Origin: Pelagibacterales bacterium SAG-MED17 | GTDB taxonomy: Bacteria > Pseudomonadota > Alphaproteobacteria > Pelagibacterales > Pelagibacteraceae | NCBI GenBank assembly: GCA_014654115.1 | Contig: JACWDO010000006.1 | Coordinates: forward strand, 1 to 48,652 | Direction of reading: 5' to 3' | DNA length: 48,652 bases | Shown: piece after piece, positions 39,982 to 40,413 of the stretch | Layout of the letters: each line of letters opens with the position of its first letter | Numbering within the stretch: the first letter of the stretch is position 1 | Program-made: the position numbers and the translations under genes | Notes under the pieces: model-generated | The model's input: only the letters and a program-made list of their open reading frames with translations | Database searches by the model: none | Told to the model about the DNA's origin: nothing

Positions 39982-40413
39982 ATGGCTAAAACATTAAATG
40001 AAATTAGGTCAGCATTTTTGGATTATTTCGAAAAAAATGATCATAAAATAGTTGAGTCTAGTAATCTAGTTCCAAATAATGACCCAACATTAATGTTTGC
40101 CAATTCAGGAATGGTTCAGTTTAAAAATGTGTTTACTGGATTGGAAAAGAGAGAGTATCAAAGAGCCACAACCTCTCAAAAATGTGTAAGAGCAGGTGGA
40201 AAGCATAACGATCTTGAAAATGTTGGCTATACACCAAGACATCATACATTTTTTGAAATGTTGGGAAACTTTTCTTTTGGAGATTATTTTAAAGATAGAG
40301 CTATTGAACTTGCTTGGAACTTAATAACTAAAGAATTTGGGCTAGATAAGAACAGGCTTTATGTAACTGTTTATCATGATGATGATGAAGCCTTTAATTA
40401 CTGGAATATCTAA
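39982..40413 (+). CDS. alaS: Alanyl-tRNA synthetase, N-terminal fragment cut at a chimeric junction
   Basis: The first 141 codons of AlaRS, from [16 protein letters not shown] through the class II motif regions ([59 protein letters not shown]) to DDDEAFNYW at 40404. The frame then runs into a stop after two foreign codons. AlaRS normally continues with KIAGL and the SDNFWxMGxTGPCGP segment; that sequence is found on the minus strand at the very end of the window, in the same frame. The gene is therefore not naturally truncated but split by an inverted join (see 40399-40404). Confidence 0.95.

Follow-up and report, generated by a model that had tools for sequence, protein, structure and literature searches.

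The window analysed here, a stretch of 48,652 bases that makes up the whole of one contig (C56), carries two essential genes on opposite strands, alaS (alanyl-tRNA synthetase) and guaA (GMP synthase), which collide head-on. Is this arrangement a feature of the living SAR11 (Pelagibacteraceae) cell, or did it arise in the handling of its DNA? The assembly holds 905,425 bases in 72 contigs at an estimated completeness of 61.2%, and these figures, together with the relatives of the window, suggest an amplified single cell as its origin. Its contig sizes are consistent with names ranked by length and then sorted as text, a scheme usual among assemblers. Names beginning AG- or SCGC occur among the related loci, and we take these to be single-cell names; the MAG prefix on the titles of some relatives speaks against a simple single-cell inference.

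Two genes broken at one point

The reading frame of alaS, which opens at 39982, ends in DDDEAFNYW and is followed by two chance residues (NI) and a stop at 40413, while guaA runs to KLLKLDIPV and then into chance antisense residues. The best NCBIfam match of the alaS 5' piece is TIGR00344 (profile positions 1-131 of 847) and that of the guaA piece is GMP synthase NF000848 (profile positions 1-72 of 512); both score under the curated cut-offs, as is expected of fragments. The original prediction, that two genes on opposite strands are broken at one point, is borne out by the frames, by these matches and by the motif TACTGG at 40399-40404, which fits both genes. The six-base microhomology that it described is best read as a minimum. 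TACTGG is common to both genes, but the next bases of alaS after the break are AA in all 14 relatives compared, and if alaS continued here as it does there, the common stretch would probably be eight bases. When these sequences are joined at random, about 0.3-0.4% of the joins share at least six bases and about 0.03-0.06% at least eight, and the stretch at the join thus exceeds chance. The sign of the G/C skew switches near the join, as a flipped coding strand would give; we do not count this as evidence.

Features of the window around the alaS-guaA join
Feature	Position	Strand	Basis or content
recA			above NCBIfam cut-off
alaS 5' part, 141 codons, cut at join	39982..40404	+	frame, PF01411, NCBIfam
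Join, very probably chimeric	40399..40406	no strand	6 bases common for certain, 8 if alaS continues as in relatives
guaA (GMP synthase) 5' part, cut inside glutaminase domain at join	40399..40659	-	
Repeat at end of contig C15, unrearranged guaA junction	40399..40463	no strand	65 bases, exact
Segment inverted relative to relatives	40407..48652		guaA-5', TPR-like (weak match), guaB, rlmE, GT8-like, pssA, psd, icd, alaS-3'
TPR-like gene			single weak NCBIfam match, no Pfam match
guaB, rlmE			best NCBIfam matches, under their cut-offs
GT8-like gene	42784-43683		PF01501 (glycosyltransferase family 8)
pssA, psd, icd			above NCBIfam cut-offs
alaS 3' part, 745 codons, off contig end	46415..48652	-	frame, PF01411

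Both genes had been described as truncated. This is true at the join, but neither has lost its remainder: the rest of alaS lies at the far end of the window on the minus strand, and the rest of guaA lies on another contig, C15. The plus-strand piece of alaS covers positions 1-138 of PF01411 and the minus-strand piece positions 139-551. In 79 of 80 related loci the gap between the end of the first piece and the start of the second is three bases (four in the other one), which places the end of the contig three bases from the alaS break. Intact second copies of alaS and guaA, named in the original prediction as what would speak against it, did not appear in the 61.2%-complete assembly, where PF01411 gave no match beyond the two pieces of one alaS and PF00958, the C-terminal domain of GMP synthase, matched once. 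Loss of alaS or guaA with second copies elsewhere was rejected, as the incomplete assembly yielded no more than the split pieces.

Gene order in related genomes

The 80 named relatives used for comparison are the best 80 of at least 581 confirmed alaS relatives; by title, 79 belong to Pelagibacteraceae and one to Pelagibacter ubique. Their gene order is recA-alaS-icd-psd-pssA-GT8-rlmE-guaB-TPR-guaA. The 3' part of alaS directly follows the 5' part in all 80 of these loci, an adjacency that is partly conditional on the loci having been retrieved by the 3' piece. The guaA 5' part has a match in 60 of the same best 80, and in 59 of the 60 it lies downstream of alaS on the same strand, with icd, psd, pssA, rlmE, the TPR-like gene and guaB between them (guaB has no match in L076). 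The exception, L056, carries a guaA relative (1247-2419, about 66-67% DNA identity) upstream of recA. Nineteen of the 20 loci without a guaA match stop before guaA, and the remaining one, L085, extends past the site without guaB and guaA. A match to guaB (IMP dehydrogenase) is missing between rlmE and the TPR-like gene at about 10702-10716 in L076 and about 13945-14423 in L085, with the sequence continuing beyond. The GT8-like gene has no match in L028, L030, L042, L064, L074 and L083, where the pssA and rlmE flanks are in place, and it seems to be variable in the group.

Comparison with the recA-alaS and guaB-guaA neighbourhoods of SAR11 relatives had been proposed as a check, and against their gene order the segment of the window is flipped. 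Aligned to L016, window positions 33731-40406 correspond to 3325-9999 and positions 40410-48652 correspond to 18243-10001, reversed. The two join points are 8,251 bases apart in seven of the ten closest measurable relatives (8,248 to 8,254 across all ten; 7,185-9,286 over all 57 relatives measured), and the window gives 8,248 plus the three missing bases, or about 8.25 kb. The warning that any gene-neighbourhood reasoning across the join would be wrong goes too far: the genes on either side are genuine neighbours, and unflipping the segment restores the order of the relatives.

A search within the genus, covering 60 relatives and the window's own genome, found among the matches listed 16 genomes with strong matches (E 1e-13 or better) to both the alaS and the guaA half of the join on one contig. 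The halves are oppositely oriented in all 16 and about 7.2-9.2 kb apart in 15. On contig C4 of G016 the guaA and alaS halves (20470-20637 and 59323-59528) are about 39 kb apart, versus about 8 kb in most relatives. The join itself, sought with up to three mismatches over 33 bases, is present in one of 399 genus genomes, the window's own; it was not found in the 398 others searched, though the pattern may miss the join in more divergent genomes. Nor was it found in the 80 named loci within four mismatches over 24 bases, where the best match has five.

One contig, L082, ends in guaA near the join, which prompted the idea of a recurrent breakpoint. This was rejected, as the end falls about eight bases short and contains no alaS sequence. 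Its position is likely a coincidence, since the contig ends of the relatives are scattered across the region.

The unrearranged guaA junction and a second inverted join

Contig C15 (8,110 bases) preserves the normal guaA junction. Its final 65 bases equal window positions 40399-40463, and the two contigs diverge at 40399, where C15 enters the rest of guaA; the two parts of guaA adjoin without a gap in all 55 relatives measured. A genome-wide search of the assembly did not recover the normal junction of alaS. To our knowledge 65 bases is not a common default k-mer length, so the assembler's break at the join is not fully explained.

These observations bear on the possibility that, in the lineage of the cell, the 8.25 kb from alaS to guaA were truly inverted in the chromosome through short inverted homology. 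A clean two-break event would also give a complete segment of the expected length, and the missing alaS junction agrees with it. Such an inversion, however, predicts a reciprocal join of alaS-3' to guaA-3', and C15 instead carries guaA-3' with 65 bases of guaA-5'. It would also leave alanyl-tRNA synthetase and GMP synthase both broken with no second copy seen, and the join is confined to this one genome among those of the genus searched. Because C15 keeps the normal guaA junction, a true inversion is contradicted unless the sample is a mixture, and we consider it very unlikely. Still less probable, in our judgement, is that the cell had a true palindromic inverted duplication at alaS-guaA, or an inversion that switches there, beside a normal copy, with both junctions present in vivo.

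C15 also contains a second inverted join, at its start. Its first 78 bases repeat C15 2994-3071 exactly in inverted form (a collapsed inverted repeat), and there a carboxyltransferase-domain gene (PF02682) stands head-on to a reversed DctM transporter gene (PF06808). The PF02682 and PF06808 halves occur on one contig in six of 30 relatives searched; they are opposite in G004, G005, G010, G011 and G013, with join points about 2.9 kb apart, matching C15. The second join shares about six bases if the native gene was as in L125, and a mismatch interrupts them if it was as in L126. In G015, contig C34 carries PF02682 and DctM pieces (1-237 and 2663-2740) in the same orientation, one of them at the contig start, which is possibly another chimeric contig end.

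Five contig ends were queried against the whole genome, and an overlap was found at the C15 start only. The window start, window end, C2 start and C3 start showed no overlap elsewhere in the genome, with weak partial matches or none for C2, C3 and the window start. The overlap at the opposite end of C15 came to light through the window. Of the 72 contigs, 20 had their starts compared with the window, with C15, with 20 kb of C67 and with each other; no exact prefix of at least 20 bases recurred. Outside this genome, the contig end of L022 (AG-898-F23; 15027-15904) is also chimeric: 653 bases there repeat, at 99.8% identity, sequence that lies about 2.9 kb upstream, and a 251-base piece inverted relative to L016 follows. 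L022 resembles the window in losing the usual gene order at a contig end, with an inverted piece; it differs in that the first of its two joins is direct.

Could the alaS-guaA join be a pure assembly error, in which an assembler or scaffolder linked two contigs and no chimeric molecule existed? The ends of C56 and C15 do both fall at join points. Against this, the six to eight common bases are far under a normal overlap, no run of N marks the join, and the assembly contains another inverted join of this form. Six to eight bases would scarcely be enough for an assembler to link sequences, which makes pure misassembly less likely than a chimeric molecule and, in our estimate, every bit as improbable as the true inversion. 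For orientation, PMC5519541 reports SPAdes in single-cell mode with 100-base end trimming, and the assembly route of this genome may differ.

Probable origin by multiple displacement amplification

Inverted chimeras are a described product of multiple displacement amplification (MDA). For one E. coli cell amplified in this way, Lasken and Stockwell (2007; PMC1855051) report 475 chimeras, 406 of them inverted; the joined sites were less than 10 kb apart in 337 of the 406, and 93.5% of that group showed complementarity. In the model given there, a displaced 3' end primes on a neighbouring displaced strand. For single-cell products of marine bacteria, passages of PMC2668756 give roughly one chimera per 13-27 kb.

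The window resembles the inverted chimeras of PMC1855051 in that its second segment is inverted, its join points lie less than 10 kb apart (8.25 kb, and about 2.9 kb at the second join) and few bases are complementary. The six bases at the join (eight likely) fall inside the 2-21-base range of MDA inverted chimeras, and the join has no counterpart in the other genomes searched. One difference is that the chimera here lies inside an assembled contig, whereas those of PMC1855051 were seen as single reads. Another in vitro route, ligation during library preparation or template switching in PCR, might be considered, as parts of PMC13141652 describe ligation chimeras in nanopore libraries, inverted repeats included. 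However, a preference for inverted joins between sites less than 10 kb apart, with short complementarity, is the signature that PMC1855051 describes for displacement amplification, and we regard ligation or PCR as the least probable source of the join.

The inversion, the length of the segment, the bases common to both genes, the normal guaA junction that coexists with the join, the lack of the join in the relatives searched and the second join lead us to conclude, with high confidence, that the join is an inverted chimera formed in vitro by MDA of DNA from a SAR11 cell. Of the two origins offered by the original prediction, MDA chimera or misassembly, the first thus fits, with the normal alaS junction still missing, and the second is the less likely. 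The sample's amplification history and the molecular steps may be pictured as follows. A displaced 3' end, already extended through recA and the first 141 codons of alaS, would pair via TACTGG(AA) with guaA, 8.25 kb downstream, on a neighbouring single strand of opposite polarity. With this strand as template, phi29 polymerase would then run back through guaB, rlmE, pssA, psd and icd to alaS, and from there the chimeric molecule would go on into a second, inverted alaS-5' and recA. The contig probably stops at the alaS break because this inverted alaS-5'/recA repeat would be impassable for an assembler.

The join almost certainly belongs to a known class of artefact and has no place in the living cell. 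Its value is one of caution: as it stands, the contig presents two essential genes as interrupted and a block of 8 kb as misoriented. With at least one more such join in this genome, at C15, other contig ends need checking. Annotation, operon and synteny work on this genome should treat 40399-48652 as flipped, from which the true order is recoverable; in the cell, alaS and guaA were most likely intact and in their normal order.
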